Below, in pieces: positions 36,350-56,422 of a stretch of 64,000 bases of DNA; position 1 is the first letter of the stretch; every line of letters begins with the position of its first letter. A model generated the notes under the pieces. It ran no database searches, was not told the origin of the DNA, and saw only the letters and a program-made list of their open reading frames with translations. Source of the stretch: Polyangiaceae bacterium (GTDB lineage: Bacteria; Myxococcota_A; Polyangia; Polyangiales; Polyangiaceae); the NCBI GenBank assembly GCA_025353725.1, contig JANXOF010000045.1, positions 124,001 through 188,000 on the forward strand. The letters are read 5' to 3'. The position numbers and the translations under genes were made by a program.

Positions 36350-36874
36350 GTGAACCCAGAAGATTCAGGAGTCATCGACCTCTTCGCGATACACAACCGT
36401 GCGTCTGCGGCGCCGCCGAGCGCGTTGCCTCCGCCCGACCTTTTGAGCTCGCCTCCCCCCGCGTTCACCATGGATCTTGCGGACGATGACGCCGATCCGT
36501 TCGGAAATAAGCCTCGCAAGAAGGTTTTGATGCTGGCCAGTGCCGCGGGAGTCGTGCTCGTCGTGGGCGTCCTCGTAGCGACCTTGAGTGGCGGCAACTC
36601 GGTGAAAGCCGCCGCTGGAGGCCTGAAGCCGAACGCGGTTGAAAACGCGCCGCCCGTCGCGGTCGCCATCCCGCTACCTGTCCCCGTGGCGGTGGCGCCC
36701 GACCCGCTGTCTGCCATCGTCCCTCCCGCGCCGCCGCCGACAGGCGCGTCTGCGGAGACTCGGTCACCTTCGCCTACCCCGGTCACCCGCTACGTGTCCC
36801 CGAAGTCTCGACACCAAACGAGCGGCGGGGTTAAGCTCACGAAGGTGCAGAGCGCAGGCGTGCCGGGCTCCTGA
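36350..36874 (+). CDS. Single-TM protein with N-terminal DSGVIDL motif
   Basis: 174 residues from GTG at 36350 (VNPEDSGVIDLFAIH); the frame reaches back to 36188 but this start matches a recurrent myxobacterial N-terminus. A cytosolic Pro-rich stretch contains DLADDDADPFG. One transmembrane helix follows (VLMLASAAGVVLVVGVLVA), then a long Pro/Val/Ala periplasmic tail. No enzymatic domain is present. A TM-anchored Ser/Thr kinase gene follows 43 bases later, and in relatives such proteins commonly sit beside kinases, so it may be a substrate or scaffold; this is inference. Confidence 0.7.
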   Translation: MNPEDSGVIDLFAIHNRASAAPPSALPPPDLLSSPPPAFTMDLADDDADPFGNKPRKKVLMLASAAGVVLVVGVLVATLSGGNSVKAAAGGLKPNAVENAPPVAVAIPLPVPVAVAPDPLSAIVPPAPPPTGASAETRSPSPTPVTRYVSPKSRHQTSGGVKLTKVQSAGVPGS

Positions 36875-36917
36875 CCCTCCGGTATTGGCCCAACGCGTGT
36901 GCCGAGCCGAATCGCGA

Positions 36918-40206: not shown

Positions 40207-43200
40207 TCACGGGCAGTCGCGCGATTTTTTTGCGGCCCACGCTCCTTTTGCTCGCCCGACGACGTCTCTCATTTCCACAGCGGCACCCGCGTGCGACACG
40301 CGCCCCGCGACGAGGTCGTCCAAGACCGCGCGCGCCATCGCTTGTCGACGCATCGAGTCGAGATAGTCGAACGTCTTACCGAACACCCCACGTACGACGT
40401 CACCGAACGAGCGAGAACGTTTGGCCTCGAGCGCCGCCTTTCGCATGCTGGCTATCGGCGTGAGTCGTGCGGTCACGGCGTCCAAGCGAGCTTTGAGCGC
40501 GGGTTCGGCCGTGGGCCTAAGTGTCTCGACGACCCGAAGTGCATAGGTACTATCAAAGAAGCCGTAGTCGTCATGCACGAGCAGCGCGCGAAGTCCCGCG
40601 TCGACGTCGTCTGCGCGGTTTGACTTGGCTTTTGTGAGCGCGCGCTCGACGGCTTCGAGGCTCACCCACCGGTAGACGAAATCGAGCCCCGTCCCCTTGA
40701 TGTTTTGCAGTCCCATGATGTCGACATGAGCGCCAGGCGGCGCGCCCTTGGCCACGAGCTCGATGAGCTTGTCGCCACGGAGTGACGCGTCGTGGAGAAC
40801 GACGAATTGGTCTTCGACCATCGCGCGGTAAGCGTCACTGAACACCTTTGAAACGAGCGCTGGCCGCGTGGTTAGGTGCGCCTCGACGGCCGCAAGAATC
40901 GAGCGTTTGAGGCGTCGGCGTACGATCGTCGCGACGACGAAGGGTCGCGCCTCGGGCGAGTAGTCCTGCGGGAGCGCGCCGTCGACCGCGCGCGAGGCCT
41001 CGGCGAACGTCTCCGCCTCTTTCGCGGGCTCGAGGAGTGCGTTGAACGCGACCTCGCCGAGCGCGGGCAAACCGAATGCCGTGAGTTCCGCCACCACCGA
41101 AGCGGAGGTTACGTGTCCGATCTTTAACCTGCTGAAGGCGAGCTCGAGCCGCGAAAGCACGATGGCACGGTGCGAGCTCGAATCTCTGCCAAGATCGCGG
41201 GTGGGAGCGATAGCGACGAGATGCTTCTCGAGCGCGTCGCGGAGAAAGACGAGTAAGCCGGAGACGTTCGTTCCGATGAGGAAGTGCTTGTGTGCGCTGA
41301 CGTCTTGAATGAGCAAGCGCGCAAAGACTTCCGATCGCGCCACGCGATCCGCGCGGTTGTTGACGACCGTGACGACCCATCGCGCGGGCTCATGCTCGAC
41401 GTCGTGGCGGTCAAAGCCCATACGCACCCAATTCGAGAGCGCCCCCGTTCGTTCGTTCGCGCTCATCCCGTTCGTAAAGGCGAGGGTGCGTCCGGCGTGG
41501 TCGATCGTGGGGTAGGTTTTCAGGACGCCGAGGTCTGGCACCACGTTGTCGGCCATCTCGGCGAGCGCTACGGCCGCCGGGACCCCCAGGGCTTGCGCGA
41601 CGGCGCATACCAGCGCGATGTTTTTCGGATGTTCGTGGTACGGAAATCGAGCAAGGATATCCTCGCCGAGAAGTGACGCCTCGCGCTCGTCGATCGCGCG
41701 CATCGAAGTCCCACGACCTTTGGCGGCTTCTCGGAGAAGCGGGAGCATCTGATCCTCCGTCGTGAAAAGCCTTCCCTTTGGCGGAATGAACTCGCTTATC
41801 ACTTCAGCAACGTCGTAGCCGGCGGGGCCCTGAACGTCCTCGTGATCGGGATACGCGTTCGTAATGGTCGAATAGTCGTCCCGCATCCACTGTGCAGAGA
41901 GCAGGTTGACAAGGTCTGGTTGGAGCGCCATGCACTCCCAGAGAAAGACCTGTACGCCAAAGCGCCGACCGAGCTCCAAGACGCCACGCTGCTCCCATAT
42001 CGTGGCCTTGTCATACGGGCGGTAGATGAAAACTTCGTGGGCAGGAAGGCCAGGCACCGCGTGGATGAACATGGCTTCGCACCCCGTCGTTTTGACGAGT
42101 ACCTCGTAGCCCAGTCCGTGAAAAAGGCCGGCTTTGAGCCGTTCCGTGCCCGATTTCCCCCGCGTTCCCCAGCCGCCGATGACGAGCGGTATGCCTTTGC
42201 GATCGGCATCGATACGCCTTCGCGTCACGACGGAACGCGCGACCATGGTGACCAAAAGAGCTGCCGCGTAGGCACCGACGTGCGGTAAACGATTGCCCTC
42301 CGGACGAACAGCGTAGTGGAGAAAGTCACGCACGACTCCGTCGACGGTTTGCGCGAGCGGCACCACGGCAAGTGCCTCGGCCGGGGCGACCCCGAGGGGG
42401 TTCGCAGAACGCTTTGACGTGAGTTCCGGAGGCGCGGGGAGCTCGGCGCAGAAGCCGTGCGGATGAAACGTCATCTGAAAGCCAGTTTCGCGAGCGATGG
42501 CCTCGAGAAAGCCTGTTTGGATCGCGGCTTCCTCCGATTCGAGCGACCGCCGCCGGGTCTCTGCAAAACGTGCGTAATGCACTGAAAGGCGAAGCCAGGC
42601 CTTTGCGCGACGCGCGAACGAGTCGGGCGGCGTGATGACGGTCGTTCCGGTCGAGCCAACGATGTGGGTTGGAAGGTGCGCGAAAAGTCCAGTGTGGAGG
42701 AGGTCGTCGACAAGTGGAACCTGCCGCCCCCAGTCGCGTCGCTTGGCGACGAGAACGCGCTCGCCAGGAACGCTCGTGGCGGTGAGCTCGGCAAGGCCTC
42801 GGGGCGGCGCTCGAAGCCGCCCACGCATGGCCCGACCCCACGTGTGCGTGTATCCCTGTCGCTTGCTTGGGAGTGGGTGCCTTAGCTCGAAGAGCCATCG
42901 CCATAGCGCGAACTCGCGGCGCTCGGCGCGGTAGACGATAAAGCTATCGCCTACGCGATCGGCCGAAAGCGCGAAGTCATCGCGCGCGAGTGCGCTGAGG
43001 ACTTGGCCCATTTGAGCGTCGGTCACGGCGGCGAGCACCTTGCCCGTGACGCGCACGCCGCCACCGGTCTTCGTCTGCGTAACCACCTTTGAGAGCAAGT
43101 CGTAGACGAGGCGCAGGTAAGGGTCCGCGAGCACAGCGACGGAGAGGAGCTCCTCGGCGACGGCCACGCGCGTGTGCTCGGGTAGAGAGGTTCGCATGGC

Positions 43201-44274
43201 CGCGCGGGTCAGAGCTTGATGCGCACTCTTTCGCGAATGAAGCGTCTTTCGACGAGCAAGGAGCGTGAACGCGGCCGCCGCTGTAGTCACCGCAAGGGGC
43301 GACGCATCCCGCTCGAGTGCCGTGGCGAGCGTTGGGCCGGCGACGTCTGGGGCGCGCTTGGCAAGTGCCCAAAGCGCAGTCGCGCGGACCTTGTCGCTCG
43401 ACGCCTCGGTCGCCAGGTGACGCAGCCCGATGGCGTCGCGCTCCACCCGCGCCGCGGTGATTCTCACGTGCTCGCTCGGGTCGTCCGCTCCGAGCTCGAT
43501 GACGACGTGCCAAAACGTTCGGCGAAGACGCGCGGCGAGTTCGACTAAGCGCTCGCGTATGAGAAAATCGTCTTCCGCGAACGGCGGGCAGAATCGCTCG
43601 CACATGTTCGCGAGTGCGAGCTCCGGCTCCACGCGCGCAAGCACTTCAAACGCCGGCGTTTGGACCCATCGGTGGTGAACCTGCCGCGAAAGTTCGCGAC
43701 ACGTCTCGACCACGAGCGCGCGATCCGCGGTGCGCATTGGATAGCGAGCCAACGAGCGGAGCACGGCGAGCGCCTCGACACGCCGCGACCAGCGGCCCGG
43801 ACGTACGGCGAGATGGTTGAGGTGCGCTACGCTGAGCGTGAGGGCCTCGGCCTCGCGTAGCCGACCACGGAGCACCGCAAGCGCGCTCTCGCACGCGACT
43901 TCGGTTCGAAAAACGAAGGCGGAACTTCGCTCGGCGAGGGCTGCGATGGTGAGTCGATGCGGCCGACCGCGTCGAAGCTCTCTTCGGTCTGCGCGAAGTG
44001 CCTTTCGGTCGTGAACGGTCTCTCGGAGATGGTTCTCGACGAGGGCGGCCCTGCGTTTTGGCTCGCGTTCGAGTGCGTCGACGAGCGCCGGAAGGCGTTG
44101 CTCTTCGCGGATGCATTGCGCGTCGAGGCGCATGGCGTGCTCGAGCAGCTCGGCGAGACCGTCTTCGTCGGCGATCTTCCGCGCGCGCTTTAGCTCCTTC
44201 ACGGCTAGCTTCTCGCGGAGTGCGCCTGCGCCGTGGCTCGAGCGTTTCACGGCCCTTTGCTCTCTGTTCGCCAC
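40207..44274 (-). CDS. HEAT-like repeat protein fused to PgsB/CapB-type amide ligase
   Basis: 1355 residues from GTG at 44274, which has GGAGG six bases upstream and overlaps the previous gene by 28 bases; GTG 44250 is a weaker alternative. Residues 1 to ~530 are alpha-helical repeats resembling HEAT (LERDASPLAVTTAAAAF, SSDKVRATALWALAKRAPD). Residues ~650-1050 match PgsB/CapB of the Mur ligase superfamily: GGWGTRGKSGTERL with P-loop Lys707, FLWECMALQPD, TNAYPDHEDVQGP and VVTVVNNRADR. PgsB ligases add glutamate to a growing poly-gamma-glutamate chain using ATP. A ~300-residue helical C-terminal extension with GLQNIKGTGLDFVYRWVSL has no assigned role. Standard PgsB is ~400 residues, so the fusion is striking. 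Product identity is inferred, not shown. Confidence 0.88.
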   Translation of the reverse strand: MANREQRAVKRSSHGAGALREKLAVKELKRARKIADEDGLAELLEHAMRLDAQCIREEQRLPALVDALEREPKRRAALVENHLRETVHDRKALRADRRELRRGRPHRLTIAALAERSSAFVFRTEVACESALAVLRGRLREAEALTLSVAHLNHLAVRPGRWSRRVEALAVLRSLARYPMRTADRALVVETCRELSRQVHHRWVQTPAFEVLARVEPELALANMCERFCPPFAEDDFLIRERLVELAARLRRTFWHVVIELGADDPSEHVRITAARVERDAIGLRHLATEASSDKVRATALWALAKRAPDVAGPTLATALERDASPLAVTTAAAAFTLLARRKTLHSRKSAHQALTRAAMRTSLPEHTRVAVAEELLSVAVLADPYLRLVYDLLSKVVTQTKTGGGVRVTGKVLAAVTDAQMGQVLSALARDDFALSADRVGDSFIVYRAERREFALWRWLFELRHPLPSKRQGYTHTWGRAMRGRLRAPPRGLAELTATSVPGERVLVAKRRDWGRQVPLVDDLLHTGLFAHLPTHIVGSTGTTVITPPDSFARRAKAWLRLSVHYARFAETRRRSLESEEAAIQTGFLEAIARETGFQMTFHPHGFCAELPAPPELTSKRSANPLGVAPAEALAVVPLAQTVDGVVRDFLHYAVRPEGNRLPHVGAYAAALLVTMVARSVVTRRRIDADRKGIPLVIGGWGTRGKSGTERLKAGLFHGLGYEVLVKTTGCEAMFIHAVPGLPAHEVFIYRPYDKATIWEQRGVLELGRRFGVQVFLWECMALQPDLVNLLSAQWMRDDYSTITNAYPDHEDVQGPAGYDVAEVISEFIPPKGRLFTTEDQMLPLLREAAKGRGTSMRAIDEREASLLGEDILARFPYHEHPKNIALVCAVAQALGVPAAVALAEMADNVVPDLGVLKTYPTIDHAGRTLAFTNGMSANERTGALSNWVRMGFDRHDVEHEPARWVVTVVNNRADRVARSEVFARLLIQDVSAHKHFLIGTNVSGLLVFLRDALEKHLVAIAPTRDLGRDSSSHRAIVLSRLELAFSRLKIGHVTSASVVAELTAFGLPALGEVAFNALLEPAKEAETFAEASRAVDGALPQDYSPEARPFVVATIVRRRLKRSILAAVEAHLTTRPALVSKVFSDAYRAMVEDQFVVLHDASLRGDKLIELVAKGAPPGAHVDIMGLQNIKGTGLDFVYRWVSLEAVERALTKAKSNRADDVDAGLRALLVHDDYGFFDSTYALRVVETLRPTAEPALKARLDAVTARLTPIASMRKAALEAKRSRSFGDVVRGVFGKTFDYLDSMRRQAMARAVLDDLVAGRVSHAGAAVEMRDVVGRAKGAWAAKKSRDCP

Positions 44275-47200
44275 GGGACACCTCCGCTGGTTTCCTCCGG
44301 GAAGGAGAGTTCGAGGGACGAGTAGTCGCTCGCGCCTCGCCGGTAGCTGCCAATGAGTGCGATGCCTGCGAACACTTGCCAGCCGCCGTCACCGCGCACC
44401 TGCGCCGTGCTGTTCGGGCGAACCTCGAAGCTTCCGGGAAGGAGTGGAAGATGCACGCTTACCCCAATGCCGCCTCCGACGTCGAAGCCGGAACGAGTTC
44501 GAGCGTTCGTGGTTCGCTCGAAATACTGGGCATCGAAGTACGCCGCCAGTTCGAGAGCGCGCAGGATGAGAAACGTGCCTGGCCTAAGCGAAGCATGACT
44601 GAAGGCGCTATTCGTTGCGTCGACCGTGCCGCGCGCGCGCAGGTAGAAGAGCTGATTGAAGAACGGGACGTACCAAAGGAGACCTTGGAGGTACGCGAAC
44701 GTGTTTCGACGAAAGCGAAACCCGTTGTAAAGATCATCATCGATGTTTCGCGACGACGCGGGACGTTCCGAGAGCGTCGTGTAGTACCCATCGTAACCGA
44801 GGCGCGGTAGGAGGGAGACGTCCGACGCGACGCGCGCGCTGTACTCGATGAAGCCTCGCGGGCGGAGCGCGTACTCGGTTTGGTTTGCACCTGCACCGAA
44901 GCCTGCCTGTGCGAATGCGCCAAGTGTACCGGTCACGCGCAGCCGTAAGGCCGTCAGGTCTTCGTAGAGTGAGACCGAGCCGCCGTACGTCGTAGGGCCG
45001 TTTCTCAACCGAATCAGTCCGCTCGCGAGCGTGAAGAGATTCAGTGATTCGATGCGTCGCCGAACCGTTAAACTCTCGAAAGCATACGCATCGAGCGCCG
45101 TGTCGGAGGTTGCGCCTTCGCGGATCGTTCCGGCGACGGCGCCGCTATGTGACTCGACCGTTCCCAAGCGGTCTTCGAGCCACGCGAGCGGAGGCGGACT
45201 GTGCTCGGCGAGACCGCGCCAAGGGCCACTGTCGAGCGTCATCAGCGCGGAGGTCGTGCTCACATCGCGCGCTGTGACGCGCTCGGGGTCGACGTCTTCC
45301 TCCGTGCTTTTGCCGAGTGTTTCGATGCGATTCGCGATGGCTACCGTGGCCGTACCGCCTCGCGCCGTGAGCGTTACCTCACCCTTCGCAGCGAGCGTCA
45401 TCCGCGCGGGTTCGCCGCCCGGGGGAAGGGTAACGTCGTGGCCTTCGGTTGAGGCGACGACGCTCACTGTCTCGCCCGGCTCGGGTGTGGCATCGATGCG
45501 CAATACACTTAAAACGTCGGCTCGCACGCGTATCGGACGACCGGGCGGCAGCAAAAAGCGGTACTGGACGTGCGGTGTATCGAGCACCCATCCCACGCCG
45601 CTCACGAACGTCGTGCCCGTGGCTTGTGCGCTCGCGACCACGCGGACAAGGGCGACGAAGTCTCCGCGTGATGGCGCCACGCTAACGGTCAAGTCCGCGC
45701 CCGTACCCCGGCCACGTGTCCGGGGTAGGTCGACCCGGGCTCGGCCGTCGGGACCGACGCGCGACGTCACACGAGCTTCACCCAGCCGGACCTCGAGAGG
45801 ACACACCTCGCTCGACTCTGCTCGCTTCCGTGCGATGCACATCACGTCGAGGTGTAACGATGCAGCGCCGAAGTCGGCGAGGAACGCCCGCGCCGGGCGG
45901 TCGGCCGAAACGCTGACGAAGTGCGCGCCGAACGGGTCGCCGGCGTAAAGGCGCGGGCGAAGGCGGCCCTCGGCATCGACGATCGGATTCGCGTTCTTTT
46001 CGTAGGGCCGAGCGACGCGCCCGCCACCACCCTCGACCGCTTTGAGGAGTTGCCACTTCGAGTTCGTGGTCGCGAGGGCTACAAGTGTCTCCGCGCGAGG
46101 ATCGTTCAGAGCCGCGTTCGCGACGTTGACCGCAAGCGCTGCGACCGCTCGATCAAACGGCGCATTTTTCCCCCTCGTGCGAAGTGTCGTGTCGAGCGAC
46201 GCGACCCGTGCGCGAGACCCGTCGCCGCTTGGGGAACAACGCGCGGCGCGTGCATCGAAGTCCGATTCGATGCCGTACGCGTTCGTGCCGAGCGCGAGCG
46301 GGGTCGGCGCGAGGGGAAGGAGGGCGCGGCGTACGAGAGCAACGGGGTCTTCGCCAGCGAGGTCGCCGTAAGCTTTTGCGAGTTCTGCATCCTCCAGGGC
46401 AGCCCTCGTTTCGCCGTAGGAGGCTAAGAGTAACCCGCGCTCGAGCGCCGCGGCGCGAATGGAAGCCGGCTTGACCGAAGCGAGGAGTTTGCGCGAAGCC
46501 GCCACCACCGCCTCGACGTTCGTCGGTTGCGCGTAAACGGTAGGTTTGACGTCGTCTTCACTCGAGGTCCCCCGCGCCACGGCGCGCACGGCAACCGCTG
46601 CCGTGCCCGTCGCGCGAGCACCTCGGAGTGTCCACGCAGGGAGCGGAATCGAAGCCGCGCGGCGCCAACGGGTGCCTTGCTCGTCGACGGCGATAAGGCC
46701 GTTCGTCGAGCGAATGTCGATGTCGAGGTGCTCCCTCCCATCGTCTGAAGTCAGCGTAAACGACGGCTTGAGGTCGCTGTCGCGCGTCCAAACCTCGACG
46801 CCGGGGGAGGTTGTTTTTTCGGGGAAGAAAAGCGCTTGCGTGGCAGCGAGATCGAGGGGCCTCGCGGCGTGCACTAAAGCGCCGCGACTCGAGCACGCGT
46901 CGTCCGAAAGGATATACACGTGCCCAGCGCCACGATCGACGCGGCGAATTCGCGCAGACTCGCCGCGAACGACGACGTGCCAGACGGTCCGTGGAGAGCC
47001 GGGTTGCGCCGAAAGCGTCTGCCCATCGACTTCGATCTGAATCGGTTCGGCGGATGTGCACGGGGCGACGACGAGAAGGCGAACCGCGCGCACGCGGCGC
47101 CACGGCACGCTGAACGCGGAGGTTGGTTGCGCGTCCAGCTCGTGTTCATCGGAGGCCTTGCGAACGTCGGTGCGAGACGCACATGCCGTATCCAGCGCCT

Positions 47201-48644
47201 GCTGCGTTCGAAACGCAAACCACGTGGGAGGCGTACCGTCGTCGATCGTCTGCCAGCTCGTTTCGCGCGCGGTTGTCCTCCACCACGCGTCCCGCAGGCT
47301 GGTATCGATCGCGTGGGAGGCGTCGTCCGCGAGGGCCGCGAGCACGGCGCCCTCTCCGCTCGACGCCTCGGACTCGAGACGTGCCGCTCGGTCGGCGGGG
47401 GCGCCGCCTACGAGTGCGGAGGAAACGCGCTGCGCGAGCGGCGTTGCCGCTTGGAAAACGCTGTCAAAGCGCGCGCCACCGTCCTGTCCGGTGAGTGCGA
47501 GGGCGAGTGCGCACGTTCCGACGAGGTCGGGTGATTCGCAGGCGAATGTCGCCTTGGCGCCGAGCCTCTCTTGGCTCTTCGCTCCCGAAAAAACGTCCTC
47601 GATACGTAGGTAAGCGGAGGTGGTTGTCGCCGTGACCCAGACCGGAGCTCCGATGGCTTCGATCGCGTAGGTGTGGCGTCCCGGGGGTACGTGAACGAAG
47701 ACGCGGCGGAGAGTGGCAAGCGTTGGGTCAATCTCGGAATCGCTCGAGGCCGAGGTCGCCCGCGCCGCCGCCGTAAGCTCAGGGTCCGGCGCGAGCGCAT
47801 GAACGGCGGCGCGTGACTCGTCGCGGACGCGGATTCCCTCTCGAACGCGTACAGCCGCGATGACATCCGCGCGACCGCGGACGACGCGCGATGAGACGGC
47901 GAACTCGGTGGGACCGTCGATCGAGACCGTGGCCGCGTGCTCGGGCACGAGTGACACAAACGTTCGACCCTGGATAGCGCGTGTCGGCACCGACGAGGCG
48001 AGCGGTACCTCGGCATTCCGGGCATACGGGTAAGACCGCACACCTTGGAGCGACCGAAGGGCACGCAGCGCCACGAGGCCGCGCACGGCCGTACTCGCGG
48101 CGTCGGCGCGTGCGAGGTCGCGGGCTCGGGTTCGAACGTCGCGAAGGACAGCGTCGACTTGGGCGATGATCTCGACGTCGACGCGCGACGCCGCCGCGAG
48201 GGCAGGAAAAGGCGTTCCGAGCGGTGAGCGGCCCCAGGCGAGGGCCTCGGTTTCGAGGTCGAACCAGGAGATTTCGGGCTCTCGTGGCACGCCCGCGTGA
48301 ACGACGACTCCGTGAGGAAGGCGTAGCGCGCTTGTGCCCACATCCGGTCGGAGAAGGATGACGCCGTCCTTTGGTGTCATCGTCGACGCCACTTCGGCCT
48401 CGCCTTGAAAGCTTCGGAAGAGGCTTACGACGCGAAGCGGGCTCTTGCTCTCGACGCGCAGGACGTCTCCCGCAGCCACGCTGTATTCGTCTGTCGCGGC
48501 GACGCTCTCGGGCATGGGCGCGCTCTGGGTAGATTGTGCGCGCGTCCAAGAGAGTTCGCTCGAGACGCGTAGGCGGGGAGTCGCACACGCCGTCGCCGTT
48601 AGGCCGAGGCCTAGCCCCACGGCAAACACGCACCCACGGATCAT
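44247..48644 (-). CDS. Large lipoprotein with C-terminal outer-membrane beta-barrel
   Basis: 1465 residues from ATG at 48644, overlapping the upstream stop (ATGA). The signal MIRGCVFAVGLGLGLTATAC ends in a lipobox. About 1150 residues of beta-rich periplasmic or surface domains follow (for example YSVAAGDVLRVESKSPLRVV, IRVRADVLSVLRIDA). Some spacing is reminiscent of TPR segments (around LASYGETRAALEDAELAKAY). The last ~300 residues alternate as a barrel: LRVTGTLGAFAQAGFGAG, FAYLQGLLWYVPFFNQLFYL, FLILRALELAAYFDAQYF and a final strand near SSLELSF. I do not recognise a family. Position between the hydrolase and ligase genes suggests the outer-membrane exit or anchor for the polymer made by the operon. 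Confidence 0.75.
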   Translation of the reverse strand: MIRGCVFAVGLGLGLTATACATPRLRVSSELSWTRAQSTQSAPMPESVAATDEYSVAAGDVLRVESKSPLRVVSLFRSFQGEAEVASTMTPKDGVILLRPDVGTSALRLPHGVVVHAGVPREPEISWFDLETEALAWGRSPLGTPFPALAAASRVDVEIIAQVDAVLRDVRTRARDLARADAASTAVRGLVALRALRSLQGVRSYPYARNAEVPLASSVPTRAIQGRTFVSLVPEHAATVSIDGPTEFAVSSRVVRGRADVIAAVRVREGIRVRDESRAAVHALAPDPELTAAARATSASSDSEIDPTLATLRRVFVHVPPGRHTYAIEAIGAPVWVTATTTSAYLRIEDVFSGAKSQERLGAKATFACESPDLVGTCALALALTGQDGGARFDSVFQAATPLAQRVSSALVGGAPADRAARLESEASSGEGAVLAALADDASHAIDTSLRDAWWRTTARETSWQTIDDGTPPTWFAFRTQQALDTACASRTDVRKASDEHELDAQPTSAFSVPWRRVRAVRLLVVAPCTSAEPIQIEVDGQTLSAQPGSPRTVWHVVVRGESARIRRVDRGAGHVYILSDDACSSRGALVHAARPLDLAATQALFFPEKTTSPGVEVWTRDSDLKPSFTLTSDDGREHLDIDIRSTNGLIAVDEQGTRWRRAASIPLPAWTLRGARATGTAAVAVRAVARGTSSEDDVKPTVYAQPTNVEAVVAASRKLLASVKPASIRAAALERGLLLASYGETRAALEDAELAKAYGDLAGEDPVALVRRALLPLAPTPLALGTNAYGIESDFDARAARCSPSGDGSRARVASLDTTLRTRGKNAPFDRAVAALAVNVANAALNDPRAETLVALATTNSKWQLLKAVEGGGGRVARPYEKNANPIVDAEGRLRPRLYAGDPFGAHFVSVSADRPARAFLADFGAASLHLDVMCIARKRAESSEVCPLEVRLGEARVTSRVGPDGRARVDLPRTRGRGTGADLTVSVAPSRGDFVALVRVVASAQATGTTFVSGVGWVLDTPHVQYRFLLPPGRPIRVRADVLSVLRIDATPEPGETVSVVASTEGHDVTLPPGGEPARMTLAAKGEVTLTARGGTATVAIANRIETLGKSTEEDVDPERVTARDVSTTSALMTLDSGPWRGLAEHSPPPLAWLEDRLGTVESHSGAVAGTIREGATSDTALDAYAFESLTVRRRIESLNLFTLASGLIRLRNGPTTYGGSVSLYEDLTALRLRVTGTLGAFAQAGFGAGANQTEYALRPRGFIEYSARVASDVSLLPRLGYDGYYTTLSERPASSRNIDDDLYNGFRFRRNTFAYLQGLLWYVPFFNQLFYLRARGTVDATNSAFSHASLRPGTFLILRALELAAYFDAQYFERTTNARTRSGFDVGGGIGVSVHLPLLPGSFEVRPNSTAQVRGDGGWQVFAGIALIGSYRRGASDYSSLELSFPEETSGGVPWRTESKGP

Positions 48645-49669
48645 GGCTCGCCGAGCGTCGTTCCCAAGGCACTCATCCACCTTCCGCGGAGCGCGGGATC
48701 GCGAAGAAGCAAGCGACGCAGTCCATCCTCCATTTCGATGTGAAGGAACTGGCCAGACGCTCTGCGCACGATCGCGCCCTGTACGTTCGTGGTGGCCCCG
48801 AGCTCGCTCGTGTCATCCGGGTATTTTAGAATCCGCGGTCCCACGACGGCCTCGAGGGCGCTTGCGACGCGCGCCACAGCCGGTGCCCCACGCTTTTTCT
48901 CGCCGGTTGAAACCACGGCGCGCGCACCGAGTTTGCGGTCCGCGAAACCATGAAGTTGAACGACGGAAAGTCGAGGAACGACCTCGACAGCGGCCTCAGT
49001 CGCGGATTGAAACATCGACGCTGCGGCATGGGCCATGTCGGAGGGGTGATTTCCGTCGGTTCCCTTCGGCGCTCCCTTGTAGCGGTGCACGGTGTTGATG
49101 AAGAGGGCGCGCGCGTTCGTGCGCTGAAAAAGCTCGCAGGCGAGGGGAAACGTTCCCTCGTCGTAAAACGTGTGCGGCGCTTGGACAACAAGCGACGATG
49201 TGCTTTTTTTACGCACGACGTAGGCGCCAGCACCACGCCGCTTGCCGGCGAGCTCTCGGAGCAAGACCGCGTCGCTCCAGCCTTCGAGAGCAACGACTTC
49301 GAAGCCGAACGCTGCCACGTTGCCCGCAGGTTCGCCGCGCAGCAACTTGGCTGCAGCCGTACGGATGGCTTTTAGCTCGTCTTCCGTCGGGGGGACGTAC
49401 GCCCCCTGGACGGTACCGCCTCGCCTCGTTTCGGCAAGCGCGGCCGGGCATTCTCCCATGATCTCGAGCGAAGGGGAGTCGCTGGCTATCATCGATGACG
49501 GGCTGTCCGGTAGGCCCGAGTCGGTAGGTGATTTCATCGAGGGAGAAGGCGTGGAGGCCGCCGGGGGCTCAAGAGCCGCGCGGGGCTTCGGGTTACACCG
49601 GCACGCGGCAACCGCGAGGGCTAAATCGAGAAGCAACGTGAAGGAAAAGAGACGACGTAAGTACCTCAA
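48641..49669 (-). CDS. Probable metal-dependent hydrolase lipoprotein of the polymer operon
   Basis: 342 residues; signal LLLDLALAVAAC with lipobox Cys23. After a Pro/Ser linker comes a ~250-residue alpha/beta domain with His and acidic residues spaced like a zinc amidase or carboxypeptidase site: APHTFYDEGT (His166, Asp170, Glu171), NTVHRYKG (His195), DMAHAA and VVQLHGFAD (His240). Together with the gene's place beside PgsC- and PgsB-like genes, this suggests cleavage of a peptide-like polymer, as poly-gamma-glutamate depolymerases do. No exact family is recognised, and metal binding is inferred from motifs. A related domain appears in the C-terminal half of the PgsC-like protein. Confidence 0.68.
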   Translation of the reverse strand: MRYLRRLFSFTLLLDLALAVAACRCNPKPRAALEPPAASTPSPSMKSPTDSGLPDSPSSMIASDSPSLEIMGECPAALAETRRGGTVQGAYVPPTEDELKAIRTAAAKLLRGEPAGNVAAFGFEVVALEGWSDAVLLRELAGKRRGAGAYVVRKKSTSSLVVQAPHTFYDEGTFPLACELFQRTNARALFINTVHRYKGAPKGTDGNHPSDMAHAAASMFQSATEAAVEVVPRLSVVQLHGFADRKLGARAVVSTGEKKRGAPAVARVASALEAVVGPRILKYPDDTSELGATTNVQGAIVRRASGQFLHIEMEDGLRRLLLRDPALRGRWMSALGTTLGEP

Positions 49670-49740
49670 CGCTCCCGCACGAGGCTAACTGAATGGATTC
49701 GGTTCGTCCGACACAAAAGCACTCGTCGTTTGCGGCTTTC

Positions 49741-51801
49741 TTATTCCTCGAACGCGCCCGCCAACCATCGTGGCCCGGCGGCTCGCGTCGACACCCAGGG
49801 AAGTGCGACAAGCGTCTGTGCCTCACGGGCGCTTGTCGGTTTGCGAAGCATAGGCGTGAGCCGAAGGCGTAGCTTTTCACCCGCGGCAATATCGTCCCCG
49901 ATGACGAACGTAGCGCGCGTCTCCCGCGGCCCTACCTCCATCGTTCGCGGCCGCGTCCACCGATGGAAGAGCGCTGGCTTGCGGCTCGATGGGGCGTCGC
50001 TTTCCACGCGAACGAGCACCGTCAATGGCTCTTCGAAGGCCGCTAGAATAGGAATAAAAAGGGGGCGTCGAGAGTCCCTTTCGAGGTCGAAGGGTTTCGT
50101 GATGCCGTCGTAGCGCCGGCCTGCACGTTCGACGTGAGCGACCTCGGTGTGTTTCGCGTGTGCGAGGGCAACCGTGAACGGCGGCGGAGGCGCGGGGGCC
50201 GGTGCGAACCATCGTGCGGTGCGCACGACTTTGTGTCCGCTCGGCTCGAACACGTGAGCGTTCGACGGCCGGCGCGCGATGAACGCGCTCGGTGCGTCTT
50301 CAGTTTCGGAAACAACGGTTGGCGGCGGCGCGTCGAGAGGCCGTGTCGGCATCGGCAGGGGCGCGAGCGTCTCGTCGAGCTCGGCGAGGGATATGTCGGT
50401 CGGTCCGTCGTCTGTCGGTGTAACGCTCGCGACGGACCCGCGTGAGAGCGCGAGGAAGAAGGCGACGCTGTCGCTCGGGGCCTCGGGCGCGTCGAAGTCT
50501 TGGTAGCGGTCGACGCGGGAACGCTCCCGGACGGCATGAAAGGCTTGTTTGTGAGGCGCATCGAGTCCTCCGCCCGTGAGCGTCACGACCACGTCGATCG
50601 ACGCGCTGCGTGTCTCCTGCCGTGCCAAGGGCTTGCGAAGAGAGACACGCACCACGCGATCGAGGTCGGGAGACTCGACCACGACGGGCGTACTTCGCGT
50701 CGATCGCCACACGTCTGTCCACCCGGACCACTCGATCTCACGCGCGTTCGAAGCCCGAACCTCTACGACGACGTCTTGCGCGGCGCTCAGTTCAACGGCA
50801 CGGACGTCGTTGAACGGTCCTGCCTCGAGCTGCCCTACCGAAGATGTGGTCTGCACTGAACCCGTCGAATCACGAAACGTAGCATTCATGGTCGTTGACT
50901 CCCCTGAGAAGAATCGTGCGCGCGCGCCTGGGTGTAGGATTAGGGCGATGCGTTCATCTCCTCGGAGTGCGACGCGCCCGAGCATCTCCTCCTTTTCCGG
51001 TGAGGGTTCGCGCGCTTGGGGCGGTGATACCGCTATCGTGGCGGTGCGAAGCTCCGTGGAATTTCCACGAAGCGTTCCTATCCGCTTCCACCTCACGCTC
51101 AAGATGGCGCCGCGCTCGGCCGCCGTCAGCTCGTCCCATCCGAGCTCCCACGCCCACCGCGCAAGCGCGTCCTTCTTCGCCCGATCGAGCGCGGTGTTGC
51201 GTATCAATGCCTCGGCCCTACCGAGTTGTTCGCGGCGGTATGCGCGTACAAGCAGCCCCTCGGCGCTGGCCACGCTTGCGAGCCTCACGACCAGCTCGCC
51301 CACGCCGACGTCGTGAACGTCCACCTCGATGGGGATCGGATCGCCCACGCCGAGGCCTGCATGCGGTGGCGTTACGCGTGACCTGAGCCCAGGAAGGTCG
51401 GCGCGGATTTCCTCCGTTCGCGAAGAGAGAGCGCCATGCATCGTGACGACGAGCGTCGCGGCGTGAGGTGTGAGAGGCATGTCTGCGGGACCGTAGGCGT
51501 GCAGGACGAAGCGAAGTACGTCGGTTCGAGCGTCGATCGGGACACGCAATTCGGAGCCTACGGGGACTTCGAAGACCCCCGCGCGCGCGGCATTTTCGCC
51601 TTCGGCCGCAAGCATCGGCTCGATGACTTCGAGCTCCCGCACCGCCACGAACGCAGCGGCCGCAAGGAGCGCAATACCGAGGGCCGCGACCGCAAAAAGT
51701 CGGGCCGCAAAGTGTCGAACCTGAGGCTCGAGGACGAGCTCCGCGGTCCCCGTGACGGTCATGCCGCGCCGCTTCGTAGTTCGGGGGGCGGGAGGCTTCA
51801 T
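49741..51801 (-). CDS. Membrane-anchored periplasmic protein of the polymer operon
   Basis: 686 residues from ATG at 51801, inside an ATGA overlap with the PgsC-like gene; a longer frame to 51882 lies inside that gene. One N-terminal TM helix (LFAVAALGIALLAAAAFVAV) is followed by a ~600-residue extracytoplasmic region rich in beta strands and Arg/Ala/Pro (LRVPIDARTDVLRFVLHAYG, VVVEVRASNAREIEWSG, RATFVIGDDIAAGEKLRLRL). No catalytic motif is evident. Its place directly after the PgsC-like gene resembles that of an envelope-spanning adaptor or of PgsA, but it lacks the PgsA/CapA metallophosphatase motifs. Function inferred from context only. Confidence 0.68.
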   Translation of the reverse strand: MKPPAPRTTKRRGMTVTGTAELVLEPQVRHFAARLFAVAALGIALLAAAAFVAVRELEVIEPMLAAEGENAARAGVFEVPVGSELRVPIDARTDVLRFVLHAYGPADMPLTPHAATLVVTMHGALSSRTEEIRADLPGLRSRVTPPHAGLGVGDPIPIEVDVHDVGVGELVVRLASVASAEGLLVRAYRREQLGRAEALIRNTALDRAKKDALARWAWELGWDELTAAERGAILSVRWKRIGTLRGNSTELRTATIAVSPPQAREPSPEKEEMLGRVALRGDERIALILHPGARARFFSGESTTMNATFRDSTGSVQTTSSVGQLEAGPFNDVRAVELSAAQDVVVEVRASNAREIEWSGWTDVWRSTRSTPVVVESPDLDRVVRVSLRKPLARQETRSASIDVVVTLTGGGLDAPHKQAFHAVRERSRVDRYQDFDAPEAPSDSVAFFLALSRGSVASVTPTDDGPTDISLAELDETLAPLPMPTRPLDAPPPTVVSETEDAPSAFIARRPSNAHVFEPSGHKVVRTARWFAPAPAPPPPFTVALAHAKHTEVAHVERAGRRYDGITKPFDLERDSRRPLFIPILAAFEEPLTVLVRVESDAPSSRKPALFHRWTRPRTMEVGPRETRATFVIGDDIAAGEKLRLRLTPMLRKPTSAREAQTLVALPWVSTRAAGPRWLAGAFEE

Positions 51802-54641
51802 CGCGTGGAGGCCTCGCAAACGCCTGACGGAATCGGAGATTGTATGCATTCCGCAAGACTCGAGCGTCGCTCGGTATGCCACGAGCCGGTGTCAGAAAGT
51901 GGGCTTACGATCACGCGGTTAGCCTGTCGCGTCCGAGCGACAGCGACGACGAAACTCCCCTCCTTTGCACGAACGATCGCCGCCCGGAAGTCCGTGCTGG
52001 CGAGTTCTATTTCCATCGCGCGAGCGGCCGTTACGCTTCCGTCGCTCGAGGCCCTTCGGACGATTTCGCTAATGTCACTTCTCGCCGGTGGGCGTGAGTT
52101 CGCGAGCCCCGAGGCGAGAGCGAAGGCCGCGTCCCGGAGCGTGCCATCGCGAACGGGCAGGGCGGTGAGATGCTCGTGTGCGTGCCGGGTTGCGGCGAGG
52201 GACGCGTTTGTGAGGCTTGCGGTGCCCGCCGAAATCGCGACAAGCGCGGTAGGGCGGAGGAGCGTGCGCGTGGCGAGATCTCGCATCGCCAAGTCGGGTG
52301 GTGTGAAGGTTGAGGCGACACCCAGTTCGGAGAGTACGCGTTGGGCACGGGCGAGAGCGCCGCCGCTATCCATCCAAGACGCTAGGGAAACGACTTGACT
52401 CGCGGGGTCTTCGCGAACGACGAACACCGTGGGCGTTTGGTCGTCTGTCGCAGCGCTGTGGGCCGCGCGTACGGCGCCGCCATGCATCGCGCCATCGAAC
52501 ACCTCACCCAGCACGAGGGCATCGGCGTCGAGCGCGATGGCGACTCGAACGCTTAAGTCGCGGATGCCTTCGTGGCTGCCAAAGGGCGCCTCGACGAAAC
52601 TCGTACGAACGCCCGACGTCCGAGCGATGACCGCGATAGGCAGCCCTTTGGCTGTCGGAAGCAGCGCTATCGCCTCACCGCCTCCCGCCCAGCGCGTGGG
52701 CGTCGTCCACCGATAGCCGAGCATCTCGGCGGCGAATGGCGCGAGTGCGCGCGCGCTTTCGTTGGCGCCGGGGGCGAGAAGGGGGTTCAACAGAAGTCGG
52801 CGAAGGGCCATGAGATGCTCGAGGTCCCCCGGATGCGTCGCCGCCCGAATTGGGGCGAGAGCTGCCGAGATGTCCGTGGCGTTGTCGAGTGCGACGGGCG
52901 CGCGCGTCGGCGCGAGGCGGTTGGCGAACTCGCGCGCGTCGATGATAAGGAGGGCTTCGAAACCTGCGAGTGCGAGAAGCTTGCCGTTGACCGACTTCGC
53001 TAGAGCCTCTACCCGCGCGTCGATGCCGGTGCCTTGGCGGGCCTTGATCTTCGCGATGCGCGGGTCGCCCGCGTCGCGGACGATGACCAACTGTCCTCCA
53101 CCCGCAAGCCATCGCGCCGCCGCGTGGGCCGTCGACTCAAAGAGCGCCCAGGTGTCCTTGGTCTCTTCGATGCCCGCGATGACGACCGCGTCGATCTCGC
53201 GCGTGTGAAGGAGCTCGCCGGCGAGCGCGGCGCACGTCGGGCACCCCAGCGGCGTCGGAACGAGCGCGACGATCGCGTGCGGTGGAAGGGGCGCACGAAA
53301 GGCATACGCTGGGGTTCCCCGGCGCGCGACGAGCGTGTCAAAGCGCTCGCGTACGACGTAAACACCGTCGTCGATCGCGGTCTTCTCGACCGCGGCAACG
53401 TTGGGCGCTCCTGTTGGCAAAAAGTGAGCCTCGGCTTCGAGTCTTTCCCGAATGAGTCCGAGATCGCCTGTCACATTCGTACTGGGTTCAGGGAGGTCGT
53501 CGATCGCGAGCTGGCTGAGCCAAAGCGCGGCGCCCGCGGGGGAGGCCGGCGGCCGCGGCATCTTCCGCGTTTGCGTCGGCTGCGGGGAAGTGACTGCTAC
53601 GCGATCGAGGAGGTGGCCTGCAAACCCGATCAGTGAGCCGACGACGAATCCAAGCAAGCTTACCTTCAGCGTCGGGAGCAAGACCAACGCCGCGCTCGAC
53701 TTTTGCGAGATTTTTACGGCGAGGAGTGTAGGGAGAAGATACCCAAAGCCCATGAAAACTAGGGCGTTGCCACCCGGGAATCGGTGGCCCATGAAGAAAG
53801 CTGCCGCGAATCGAAGGGCGTAATCGACAGTGAAGAATAAAACCGTCTTGCGCGGTCCCTCAATGTTCATTCGCTTGAGGGGCGTCGCAACCTTGAGGGC
53901 AGCTACCGCCGCGCAGAGGATGAGCGTCTCCGCGAACGTCGCACCAAACTTGATAGGCTCCACGACGGCGAGGCCGAGGAGCGCGGGAACGAGGATTCCA
54001 TTGAAGTCCCAGCCGTAGCGTACGTTCGCCGCGGCGGCGATCATCGCGCCCGTGAGCAGGAGCATGTACGATTTCGGCGAAGAGAGAAACCCGCCTGCGA
54101 GATTCTCTGTGCCCAACTCGAAGCCCGCGAGCGAGAGGTTCGTATGCGGAATGAGAACCCAACGCAAGGCGAGGTAAACGATGAGCGTGGGAATCCCGTG
54201 TTGCACGACGCCGCGGACGAAGCCTGTTTTCCAGCAGGCGTTCGCGGCGAGCGGTACGACGACGAGTCCGACCGAGTAGGCCCAGGTCGCGTGCGGGACC
54301 GCGTGCGGGAGCAGCCAACCCTCGACGGCTAGGCGCACGAGAATACTGACCAAAACGACAAGAAAAAACCTCTCGCGTCCAAAGACGCGGCTGGTCACGC
54401 CGAGGCGCGGGAGGTACTCACCGAGAGCGCGGGCGACCCCATACGTGATTACGGCCTCAAACAGATCGATCGTTGCGGCGACGGGCTCGAGTAGGAAAAT
54501 GGCTCCCAGATATCCGGGCACGACGAGCCCCGCGAATACCCATCCGAGCGTCTCCGTGAGCGCCCACGAGACGAGGAGGCCGATGAGGACTGGTGTGGTA
54601 ACGGAGTGGTCAAATCCGGAGCGCGGAAAGATCGGTAACAT
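51798..54641 (-). CDS. PgsC/CapC-like polyamide synthase membrane protein with hydrolase-like C-terminus
   Basis: 947 residues. The first ~350 are polytopic and match PgsC/CapC: FAGLVVPGYLG at 36-46 (identical in pattern to the PgsC signature) and a second copy FNGILVPALLGL at 213-224, so the PgsC fold is duplicated. Residues ~370-947 are soluble. They contain two segments resembling the operon's hydrolase lipoprotein: VALVPTPLGCPTCAALAGEL and FVEAPFGSHEGIRDL, the latter aligning with APHTFYDEGTF. PgsC is a membrane partner of PgsB in poly-gamma-glutamate synthesis. Normal PgsC is ~150 residues, so this is a much enlarged version. The gene is followed by an ATGA-coupled periplasmic protein gene. 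Confidence 0.85.
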   Translation of the reverse strand: MLPIFPRSGFDHSVTTPVLIGLLVSWALTETLGWVFAGLVVPGYLGAIFLLEPVAATIDLFEAVITYGVARALGEYLPRLGVTSRVFGRERFFLVVLVSILVRLAVEGWLLPHAVPHATWAYSVGLVVVPLAANACWKTGFVRGVVQHGIPTLIVYLALRWVLIPHTNLSLAGFELGTENLAGGFLSSPKSYMLLLTGAMIAAAANVRYGWDFNGILVPALLGLAVVEPIKFGATFAETLILCAAVAALKVATPLKRMNIEGPRKTVLFFTVDYALRFAAAFFMGHRFPGGNALVFMGFGYLLPTLLAVKISQKSSAALVLLPTLKVSLLGFVVGSLIGFAGHLLDRVAVTSPQPTQTRKMPRPPASPAGAALWLSQLAIDDLPEPSTNVTGDLGLIRERLEAEAHFLPTGAPNVAAVEKTAIDDGVYVVRERFDTLVARRGTPAYAFRAPLPPHAIVALVPTPLGCPTCAALAGELLHTREIDAVVIAGIEETKDTWALFESTAHAAARWLAGGGQLVIVRDAGDPRIAKIKARQGTGIDARVEALAKSVNGKLLALAGFEALLIIDAREFANRLAPTRAPVALDNATDISAALAPIRAATHPGDLEHLMALRRLLLNPLLAPGANESARALAPFAAEMLGYRWTTPTRWAGGGEAIALLPTAKGLPIAVIARTSGVRTSFVEAPFGSHEGIRDLSVRVAIALDADALVLGEVFDGAMHGGAVRAAHSAATDDQTPTVFVVREDPASQVVSLASWMDSGGALARAQRVLSELGVASTFTPPDLAMRDLATRTLLRPTALVAISAGTASLTNASLAATRHAHEHLTALPVRDGTLRDAAFALASGLANSRPPARSDISEIVRRASSDGSVTAARAMEIELASTDFRAAIVRAKEGSFVVAVARTRQANRVIVSPLSDTGSWHTERRSSLAECIQSPIPSGVCEASTR

Positions 54642-54691
54642 CGGGGTCGATTCGGCAGTCTACGAGGCCTCGTCCCGCAACACGCGCAAGA

Positions 54692-54958
54692 TTAGATCGC
54701 ACGAACGGAGTCGAGCAGCTTTGCTACGGCGTTCCAGTCGAACGTATGGAGGGAGTCGACCTCCGTCCTCAAGCTCCACGACGAGCCAACGCTCGCGAGT
54801 GCGTCGGCACGAGTCTTCCCCCACTCGGACACCACCACGGCTTCGTCCGAACGACTCGCACGAGCTTCGACCCGCCACTCGTTGGGCTGTTGCGGATTCT
54901 CGCGAACGAAGATGCTCACCGTAAGGCGGTGGCCATCCGACGTCATGTCGTAGACCAT
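54692..54958 (-). CDS. Small hypothetical cytosolic protein at the head of the polymer operon
   Basis: 88 residues from ATG at 54958 (or ATG 54946). No signal peptide or TM helix is visible. The sequence reads as a compact alpha/beta domain: RLTVSIFVRENPQQPNEW, RVEARASRSDEAVVVSEWGK and FDWNAVAKLLDSV. It is co-directional with the PgsC-like gene, 50 bases upstream of it, so it is probably co-transcribed. No family recognised; it could be a regulator or chaperone of the synthase, which is a guess. Confidence 0.6.
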   Translation of the reverse strand: MVYDMTSDGHRLTVSIFVRENPQQPNEWRVEARASRSDEAVVVSEWGKTRADALASVGSSWSLRTEVDSLHTFDWNAVAKLLDSVRAI

Positions 54959-55107: not shown

Positions 55108-56256
55108 CTACGCCACCACCCACACAAATTCCGCCGAAGGTCGCGCGAAGTGGTAGCCCTGCAGGAGATCGCAGCCGAGCTCTGTGAGCTTGGCTAACTC
55201 GTGAATAGTCTCAACGCCCTCAGCGACAAGATTCATTCCCGTGTCGCGGCACGTTTCCACCATGGACGAGACGAGCCGCTGGCGAAGGGGCGACGCGGCC
55301 AGATCACGCGTGAGGCTCATATCGAGTTTCACGAAGTCTGGCTCGAGCGTCGCGATGCTGCTCAGCCCAGCATACCCTGCACCGAGGTCGTCGATAGCGA
55401 GGCGAAACCCGAGCGAGCGAAGCCGCCTTAGTCGCGCTGGCAAATCTCCTACTTCGCTTATGGCGCCGCGCTCTGTAATCTCGAGAACGACATTTTCGGC
55501 GTAGGCCGCGAGGCGGCTCGAAGATGAAAAGAGCTCGGCGTCAAAAAGGTCTTGTGCGTGTACGTTGACAAAGAGCGCCGTGCCGTGCGGAATCTTTCCG
55601 GCGGCATTGCCGCAGAGATCGCGAATGGCGCGGCCCAAGTCAGGAAGCCGCCCCGAGCTTTCGGCGTACGAAAGCATCGCGAGCGGATTTTCAAACCCCG
55701 GTTCGCGGGTTCGCATCAGGGCTTCGTACGCCACGGGACAGTGAGCCGCGAGCGATACGATAGGCTGAAAAGCCATCCAGAGTGTTTCGAGCGCGCGCTC
55801 GAAGCTGTTTGCCTTTTCAGGGTCTGGAGGCTCGACCACGACCTGCCGCTTGACGGCATGGGCGCGAGCAATGGCTCGAAGTAGCGCGTCTTTGTCGACA
55901 GGTTTGGTCAAGTAGTTGACAGCGCCGAGCTCGACGGCGTCGGTGGCTGTCGCGATGGAGGGATCACCTGTAATGAGAATCACGGGTGTGGAGCAGCCGT
56001 AGCTCCGGAGTAAACTAAGGAGTTCGGTGCCGGTCATTCCTGGCATATGAACATCGGATACGACCATGTCGTAGCCGCCTGCCATGGCCTCTCTTGCCGC
56101 CTCCTGGGCGTCGGTCGATTTCTCGACGGTATATCCGCCCATGACAAGAATTCGTTCGACGGTTCGCGCGACGAGCTCGTCGTCGTCCACCAAAAGGACG
56201 TCGGCGCGCTTGGCGCGGGGTCTACTCTGGCTCGGCGGCAGCGTAAGGGTGTCCAT
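55108..56256 (-). CDS. Response regulator with EAL domain (c-di-GMP phosphodiesterase)
   Basis: 382 residues from ATG at 56256; GTG at 56295 in the same frame is possible and neither has a clear ribosome site. The N-terminal receiver has DDDE acidic pocket, phospho-acceptor Asp in VVSDVHMPG, ITGD and KPVDK. The EAL domain has YEALMR (EAL intact), NVHAQDLF, VLEITERG, DDLGAGY, FVKLDMS, AEGVET and LLQGYHFARP, all metal and nucleotide residues conserved. It should hydrolyse c-di-GMP when activated by an unseen kinase. The polymer operon starts 149 bases downstream on the same strand, so it may tune polymer output; context inference only. Confidence 0.93.
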   Translation of the reverse strand: MDTLTLPPSQSRPRAKRADVLLVDDDELVARTVERILVMGGYTVEKSTDAQEAAREAMAGGYDMVVSDVHMPGMTGTELLSLLRSYGCSTPVILITGDPSIATATDAVELGAVNYLTKPVDKDALLRAIARAHAVKRQVVVEPPDPEKANSFERALETLWMAFQPIVSLAAHCPVAYEALMRTREPGFENPLAMLSYAESSGRLPDLGRAIRDLCGNAAGKIPHGTALFVNVHAQDLFDAELFSSSSRLAAYAENVVLEITERGAISEVGDLPARLRRLRSLGFRLAIDDLGAGYAGLSSIATLEPDFVKLDMSLTRDLAASPLRQRLVSSMVETCRDTGMNLVAEGVETIHELAKLTELGCDLLQGYHFARPSAEFVWVVA

Positions 56257-56422
56257 CAGTTGATCAGTGGAACTCTTTAGTGACCTAGCGTCCACTCACT
56301 TTCGCGAAATCAGGAGTTGCGGAAGTAGCGACACGCCCGTGCATGTGGTGAAGCCTCAAACAGTCGGCCTTTCGAGCGCTCTGAGATGGCGAGTCCGTGT
56401 CGGCCTTGGTAAGACGCCCGGC

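Follow-up and report, generated by a model that had tools for sequence, protein, structure and literature searches.

A candidate operon for synthesis and trans-envelope export of a poly-gamma-glutamate-like polyamide in a Polyangiaceae bacterium

Introduction

Poly-gamma-glutamate (PGA) is known mainly from Bacillus, where the polymer crosses one membrane. Cellulose, alginate and Pel secretion each combine a synthase, a hydrolase or lyase in the periplasm and a barrel in the outer membrane. The locus described here resembles each of these in part. It lies in a stretch of 64,000 nt of a Polyangiaceae bacterium (GCA_025353725.1, contig JANXOF010000045.1, 124,001–188,000 of the forward strand; hereafter the window) and consists of five genes, P5, P4, P3, P2 and P1 in transcription order, all on the minus strand at window positions 40207–54641. 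The operon probably encodes a machine that makes PGA, or a close acidic polyamide, and exports it across two membranes; the probability of this reading is put at roughly 70 %.

A capsule survey, in the portion available, reports PGA systems, for which CapB and CapC are required, in most phyla (PMC5542703). Ligase–CapC pairs outside Bacillus are therefore not new. In the same portion, the PGA model of the survey names CapA, CapE and CapD, with PgsS forbidden, and no hydrolase-fold or outer-membrane partner (PMC5542703). Polyglutamate has also been reported in Francisella (PMC6506827) and in Fusobacterium, a Gram-negative. The partner genes P2–P4 beside the ligase–CapC pair appear to be new; titles and starts of abstracts in the openly licensed literature held no description of the gene set, or of two-membrane export of such a polymer. 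The ‘CapCone’ of a paper on lipocones, judged from its available text, is unrelated (PMC12419801, eLife).

Like PgsBCA/CapBCA of Bacillus, the operon encodes a CapC-family membrane partner and a ligase core with the motifs of ordinary PgsB, the PgsB proteins compared being those of the phylum. In contrast to PgsBCA, P1 is about three times longer and carries HEAT-like repeats, PgsC occurs as two units joined to a degenerate hydrolase domain, and the operon has no CapA; its additional products are a membrane-anchored protein, one with a hydrolase fold and one with an outer-membrane-type barrel.

Operon layout, the long ligase and its tandem CapC partner

All five frames are free of internal stops and have a coding-like base composition by codon position. 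The overlapping, co-directional arrangement described in the original prediction is found at three junctions (P5/P4, 85 bases; P3/P2, 40; P2/P1, 28), with a gap of 71 bases between P4 and P3. Promoter and terminator scans gave nothing beyond the level of shuffled sequence. No Pfam or NCBIfam family was matched above chance by P2, P3 or P4.

P1 (40207..44274, minus strand; 1355 residues) is a PgsB-like amide ligase lengthened by extensions at both termini. Residues 672–1008 (41251..42261) form the ligase core and match the TIGR04012 PgsB equivalog with an expectation value (E) of 1.4e-61, bearing out the proposed PgsB/CapB-like ligase. Fifty-six conserved positions are common to 13 long and 15 ordinary PgsB proteins of the phylum, with Bacillus PgsB outside the comparison; four of the 56 lie beyond the core stretch, at 1191–1196. 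The conserved motifs comprise a G-x-RGK ATP loop (G703/R705/G706/K707), KTTG, ECM, PDH, AN, N-x-R-x-DR (N972/R974/D976/R977) and a C-terminal N-I-x-G-x-G. Loss of ligase residues had been envisaged as a ground for abandoning the prediction; on these alignments the motifs appear to be kept. Long P1 and ordinary PgsB of the phylum also differ consistently at 22 positions (C732 for T, M735 for R and S938 for A are examples), three of which have no residue in ordinary PgsB, so the substrate of P1 may differ.

The long form carries approximately 650 extra residues N-terminal to the core, with HEAT-like repeats, as well as an insertion and a tail on the C-terminal side. The HEAT-repeat-like stretch spans residues ~200–335 (43270..43677). 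A P1 family profile of 13 rows matches designed alpha-Rep chains (E 6.2e-8 to 3.2e-4), and Pfam HEAT is matched below cut-off only (E 0.65 and 0.7). A PDB sequence search with P1, P5, P3 and their profiles likewise matched HEAT-like designed proteins with P1; nothing was found for the ligase core, CapC or the hydrolase, and the other rows were at chance level. Ordinary PgsB has a membrane helix just before the ligase core. In P1 a weakly hydrophobic stretch (residues 666–684, 42223–42279; Kyte–Doolittle score 1.64) directly precedes the core, and most relatives have no clear counterpart of it. Searched against its own genome, P1 matches only itself. Against a viral collection it gave two stretches and no relatives, and PHROGs searched with P1, P3 and P5 gave nothing below E 0.28.

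P5 (51798..54641, minus strand; 947 residues) is the PgsC/CapC-like inner-membrane protein that had been proposed, here resolved into two CapC/PgsC units (residues ~1–345) and a C-terminal region. Pfam CapC (PF14102) is matched over two stretches with E 4.2e-35 and 121.2 bits (cut-off 27), and the TIGR04011 PgsC equivalog with E 7.2e-14; a CapC match is present in all ten aligned P5 proteins. The second half of the tail (residues ~634–827; 52161..52742) is homologous to P3, with an hhalign probability of 97.3 % and E 2.4e-11 against the P3 profile. Searched against 28 P5 tails, the P3 profile matched most, down to 2.3e-13, and with the window's own tail gave an E of 1.2, which is not significant. 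The first catalytic His is absent from 19 of the 22 tails in which it could be judged and the second from 9 of 10; the final Glu and Arg are aligned in none. This domain is probably inactive. A hydrolase copy without activity, joined to the membrane partner, would be well suited to holding a chain. Residues 375–610 were considered as a second hydrolase-like domain; they reached 72 % against the other half and 2.6 % against P3, and the domain is not claimed.

Candidate envelope proteins P3, P2 and P4

P3 (48641..49669, minus strand; 342 residues) starts with a secretion-type, lipobox-like V-A-A-C motif and is predicted to adopt a zinc-hydrolase fold, in agreement with the hydrolase-like lipoprotein originally described. 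The AlphaFold2 (AF2) model has a mean predicted local distance difference test (pLDDT) of 86.8 and a predicted template modelling score (pTM) of 0.79. Its two highest Foldseek matches are 3a9l, the phage PGA hydrolase PghP, and 5onj, PghL (YndL) with bound polymer (E 8.9e-6 and 1.1e-5; template modelling scores 0.53 and 0.56 by target length). VIA Z scores are 14.5 for 2odf, 14.1 for 3a9l, 13.8 for 5onj, 13.2 for the N-formylglutamate amidohydrolase 2q7s and 12.7 for another phage PGA hydrolase, 21dc, followed by carboxypeptidases at about 12. The modelled fold is thus nearest to PGA hydrolases and N-formylglutamate amidohydrolase-like (FGase-like) proteins, and the model does not separate MEROPS family M86 from the FGase-like group; nor does such a fold by itself establish activity.

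Five residues of P3 (H166, D170, H240, E312 and R318) do not vary among the 38 aligned rows (37 of 41 listed rows plus the window). In PghL, zinc is bound by His41, Glu46 and His102, Glu165 is catalytic, and the essential Arg171, six residues on, anchors the glutamate carboxylate of the substrate (PMC6506827). The invariant residues of P3 follow the PghL order; they are equated by motif order and a weak profile alignment, not by superposed coordinates. P3 thus resembles PghP and PghL (M86, PF05908) in its top structural matches and apparently in the order of its putative catalytic residues. It differs from them in having no PF05908 match, in apparently carrying Asp where their second zinc ligand is Glu, at a spacing shorter by one residue, in the position of its gene inside a synthesis operon and in its secretion-type start. 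PF05908 proteins of the phylum line up with P3 at D170, the HG motif and E-x5-R, H166 being outside the alignment. By sequence P3 is not a PF05908 member, yet its model suggests that it shares the PF05908 fold.

PF05908 was not found in the window's own genome at E up to 0.1. Five of the 188 Myxococcota genomes have PF05908 gamma-PGA hydrolases above cut-off (loci L171–L175), and two such genomes (G023, G028) also carry ordinary PgsB.

P2 (44247..48680, minus strand; 1477 residues) has a lipoprotein-like start (A-T-A-C, a weaker lipobox), a long part of unassigned family and a C-terminal outer-membrane-type barrel. The barrel end of the large lipoprotein named in the original prediction is upheld by the model and by PDB matches. 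The last 639 residues (839–1477) were modelled with AF2 (pLDDT 83.0, pTM 0.62), and residues 332–608 of this fragment form a predicted barrel of 14 long strands, mostly with pLDDT above 90 (P2 residues ~1170–1446; 44343..45173). The best Foldseek match of the barrel is OmpG (2x9k, E 4.8e-8); VIA Z scores are 19.7 for CymA, about 18 for OmpG, 15.3 for BcsC (6tzk) and 14.9 for PelBC (9h80). In an alignment of 46 of 53 listed P2 fragments plus the window, identity is 35–40 % in the five closest loci and 12–19 % in the rest.

P4 (49741..51882, minus strand; up to 713 residues) has, by hydrophobicity, a single N-terminal membrane helix followed by a large part of unassigned family, and its true start is probably inside the annotated frame. 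A profile of nine homologues matches residues 70–283 (E 1.4e-15). No Pfam family was found for P4; a few homologues gave weak matches, the best at 6e-4. The anchor proposed for P4 is present, and the main part of the protein is presumably periplasmic.

Conservation and co-occurrence

Among 188 Myxococcota genomes, in each of which the top 3 candidates for P1, 4 for P5 and 12 for P3 were scored, ligase matches occur in 43. The long form of P1 is found in 15 genomes, including that of the window (E <= 1.9e-103), and the ligase core alone in 27, mostly in frames of ~390–560 codons (E 1e-27 to 1e-48); G117 has only the C-terminal piece of a long form, at a contig end. Both forms are present in G067 and G013.

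Up to 20 kb were compared around the 14 other long-P1 loci. The order P5-P4-P3-P2-P1 on one strand is kept at nine (L031, L032, L034, L036, L037, L039, L041, L042 and L043), where P4 and P2 were placed by position and then tested against each other. Profiles built without the window recover its P5 (3.4e-150), P3 (1e-71), P1 and the front of P4 (1.4e-15). At L034, P1 and P2 are mis-called, and P1 was kept out of the family alignment and both out of the wider-locus profiles. At L035, P1 of G013 extends over two frames, representing a split gene or a sequence error.

Searching a collection of 84,980 genomes with the P1 alignment identified 322 relatives; the 80 best were examined as named loci. 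Fifty-two of these 80 have 8 kb or more of sequence upstream of P1. In that region, on the strand of P1, P2 is present at 44, P2 and P3 at 39, and P2, P3 and P4 at 35. P2 also lies upstream at 11 of 12 loci with 1.5–8 kb. The best 80 come from Myxococcota, Pseudomonadota, Thermodesulfobacteriota, Planctomycetota, Acidobacteriota, Nitrospirota, Wallbacteria and Poribacteria, which we take to be two-membrane lineages; the Pseudomonadota carriers include Halomonas, Vreelandella, Marinobacter, methanotrophs, Thiomargarita and Ramlibacter. A 93-row tree, from which loci failing the ligase-motif or length filter are omitted, follows phylum for the most part (11 label changes, versus 32.7 when shuffled), with the window among Myxococcota and some rows labelled Deltaproteobacteria among Pseudomonadota. 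Some loci are redundant: L103 is identical to L038 (G211 = G044), and L104/L152 and L087/L160 are further pairs.

P5 reaches E<1e-100 in 14 of the 15 genomes with long P1; of the 173 others, one does so (G160, 83 % complete). The fifteenth long-P1 genome, G013 (79 % complete), has a P5 fragment only (4e-34). Weak P5 matches (E 1e-10 to 1e-3) in 34 further genomes are to ordinary CapC-like or tail-like stretches. The P5 alignment matched all 25 long-P1 genomes tried (24 distinct, since G211 = G044, and G013 by its fragment). In three Sorangium genomes (G198, G199, G200) the gene set is split up, with P5 lying 31–100 kb from P1. Co-conservation in relatives, on which the original prediction had been staked, is thus seen in gene order across Myxococcota and other lineages and in co-occurrence even when the genes are unlinked. 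The distribution is patchy: a P1 match is absent from all 11 further genomes of the same genus as the window.

Neighbouring genes

An 88-residue gene, P6 (54692–54958, minus strand), had been counted as a sixth operon member. It has four strong relatives (39–42 % identity) in three of five related genomes, with two copies in one, and all four are on contigs other than those of the operon; P6 was rejected as a conserved part. The predicted absence of PgsA/CapA (PF09587) holds for the six proteins originally assigned to the operon, with two PF09587 proteins elsewhere in the genome, both outside the window.

The next gene but one before the operon, 149 bases upstream of P6 and co-directional (55108..56295, minus strand), encodes a response-regulator receiver plus EAL protein (Pfam Response_reg 1.3e-26, EAL 1.7e-52). 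It is possible that this protein regulates the operon, with a link to cyclic di-GMP.

A cluster of large, sensor-kinase-like genes has a member at 19 of 36 loci examined (L104/L152 and L087/L160 being the same genomes), for example L104:13631-16303, L148:5611-8538 and L153:7029-9467. At 14 of the 19 this gene lies directly before P5 on the same strand, within 440 bases or overlapping. Three members were tested: CHASE2 is above cut-off in two and HATPase in one, and kinase domains are below cut-off in two. Of the similar upstream genes of L041 and L043, one has CHASE2 below cut-off and the other no match. CheY-like receiver genes stand beside the sensor-kinase-like gene at several loci. The window contains no member of the cluster.

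Elsewhere in the window are genes for a glycoside hydrolase family 44 protein (28469–31333, minus strand; 9.5e-24) and a serine/threonine protein kinase (36639–38462, plus strand; 5e-46). Between the latter and the operon end are two proteins without a Pfam match.

Discussion

The PgsB core, the tandem PgsC, the PGA-hydrolase-like fold and the exporter-like barrel emerge from separate tests that agree, and thereby support the synthesis and export reading. The polyamide synthesis and export proposed in the original prediction is in this way both supported and extended. From the observed gene content, order and co-occurrence, the conserved motifs and the predicted folds, we infer a glutamate monomer, a gamma linkage, the direction of transport, the location of P3 and P4, the contacts between the parts, and the activity and role of P3.

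In the proposed mechanism, P1, which the HEAT-like repeats probably dock, would form amide bonds at the expense of ATP on the cytoplasmic side of the inner membrane. P5 would act as its partner in the membrane, carrying the chain across, and may grip it via its probably inactive domain. P4 could bridge the periplasm, in which P3 would cut or trim stray or over-long chain, and the P2 barrel may serve as the outer-membrane exit.

This plan is like that of synthase-dependent exopolysaccharide secretion (Bcs, Alg, Pel), and the modelled P2 barrel aligns with BcsC and PelBC. Unlike those systems, a Mur-type amide ligase takes the place of the glycosyltransferase, no glycosyltransferase family is found in P1–P5, and P2 has no TPR match at sequence level (the model covering residues 839–1477 only). 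By analogy, the operon may work like cellulose or Pel secretion without belonging there. With somewhat less assurance than the export reading itself, it may represent a distinct class of secretion system for polyamides: a PgsBC counterpart of cellulose and Pel secretion in hundreds of species across many two-membrane lineages, with its own outer-membrane exporter, a trimming hydrolase in the periplasm and an inactive copy, joined to the inner-membrane channel, that grips the chain.

Several observations weigh against synthesis and export of PGA. CymA- and OmpG-like barrels are porins, which also serve uptake. A P2 profile built without the window, with one mis-called row, gave no match in the window's P2, so the kinship of P2 rests on close relatives and on fold. 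P1 scores 208.4 bits (212 in the genome search) against a PgsB equivalog cut-off of 222.7, and P5 scores 52.2 bits against a PgsC cut-off of 96.45; the substrate could therefore differ. For P3, the scores of 2odf and 2q7s are similar to those of the PGA hydrolases, with carboxypeptidases at Z ~12. PF05908 was not found in P3 or nine aligned homologues at E up to 1, and the profile comparison of P3 with PF05908, which rests on four good rows (the fifth, L173, being on the wrong strand), was not significant (3.3 %, E 0.013). At E<1e-30, P3 occurs in all 15 long-P1 genomes and also in seven without long P1 (G131, G019, G083, G025, G099, G100 and G160); these relatives may be scavenging or predatory polymer hydrolases. 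Five of the 14 phylum loci lack the full order: P5 is near but on the opposite strand at L040, L035 and L038 are truncated where their contigs end, and P5 and P3 were not found in the stretches around L033 and L044. Among the 52 loci of the wider set, P2 is absent upstream at eight and P3 at 13. Weak or second copies may also have been missed, because few candidates were scored per genome. Lastly, one source mentions that PgsA was earlier claimed to be essential (PMC6029982).

Some of these points would fit the same machine making another polyamide, or a polymer bearing amino acids, in place of PGA. The 22 positions that set long P1 apart from ordinary PgsB of the phylum, the hidden Markov model scores under both equivalog cut-offs and the similar scores of N-formylglutamate amidohydrolase-like folds for P3 all lean this way. 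However, two PGA hydrolases head the Foldseek list of P3, and its E-x5-R pair is invariant in 38 of 38 rows, the corresponding Arg of PghL holding the substrate glutamate carboxylate; a different polymer is considered unlikely. Mur-type ligases attach amino acids singly to acceptors, and P3 relatives occur without long P1, as might be expected if the operon glutamylated or otherwise decorated a lipid, peptidoglycan or protein of the envelope, with no free polymer and with P3 removing the tag. The conservation of a barrel protein and a tandem PgsC alongside the ligase speaks against decoration, as does the formation of PGA by B. subtilis PgsBC without PgsA, reported in PMC6029982, and this explanation is held to be quite improbable.

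Uptake or recycling of environmental polyglutamate, with P2 importing the polymer, P3 cutting it and P1 and P5 acting at some other step, would draw on the resemblance of the barrel to CymA and OmpG and on the secretion-type start of a hydrolase-like protein; yet an ATP-dependent ligase and a PgsC partner, both strongly conserved, would be needless for uptake, which makes it the least credible of the explanations considered.

Under the synthesis and export reading, the operon provides a candidate for every step of polyamide export through both membranes. Carriers include named cultured organisms (Halomonas, Vreelandella, Ramlibacter, Corallococcus and Sorangium); because the gene set covers every step in such organisms, the question of export is directly testable. 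If the reading is true, the 322 relatives of P1 would point to hundreds of polymer producers that have so far gone unsuspected, including methanotrophs, giant sulfur bacteria and myxobacteria, and the operon would answer how a ligase-made polymer leaves cells with two membranes.

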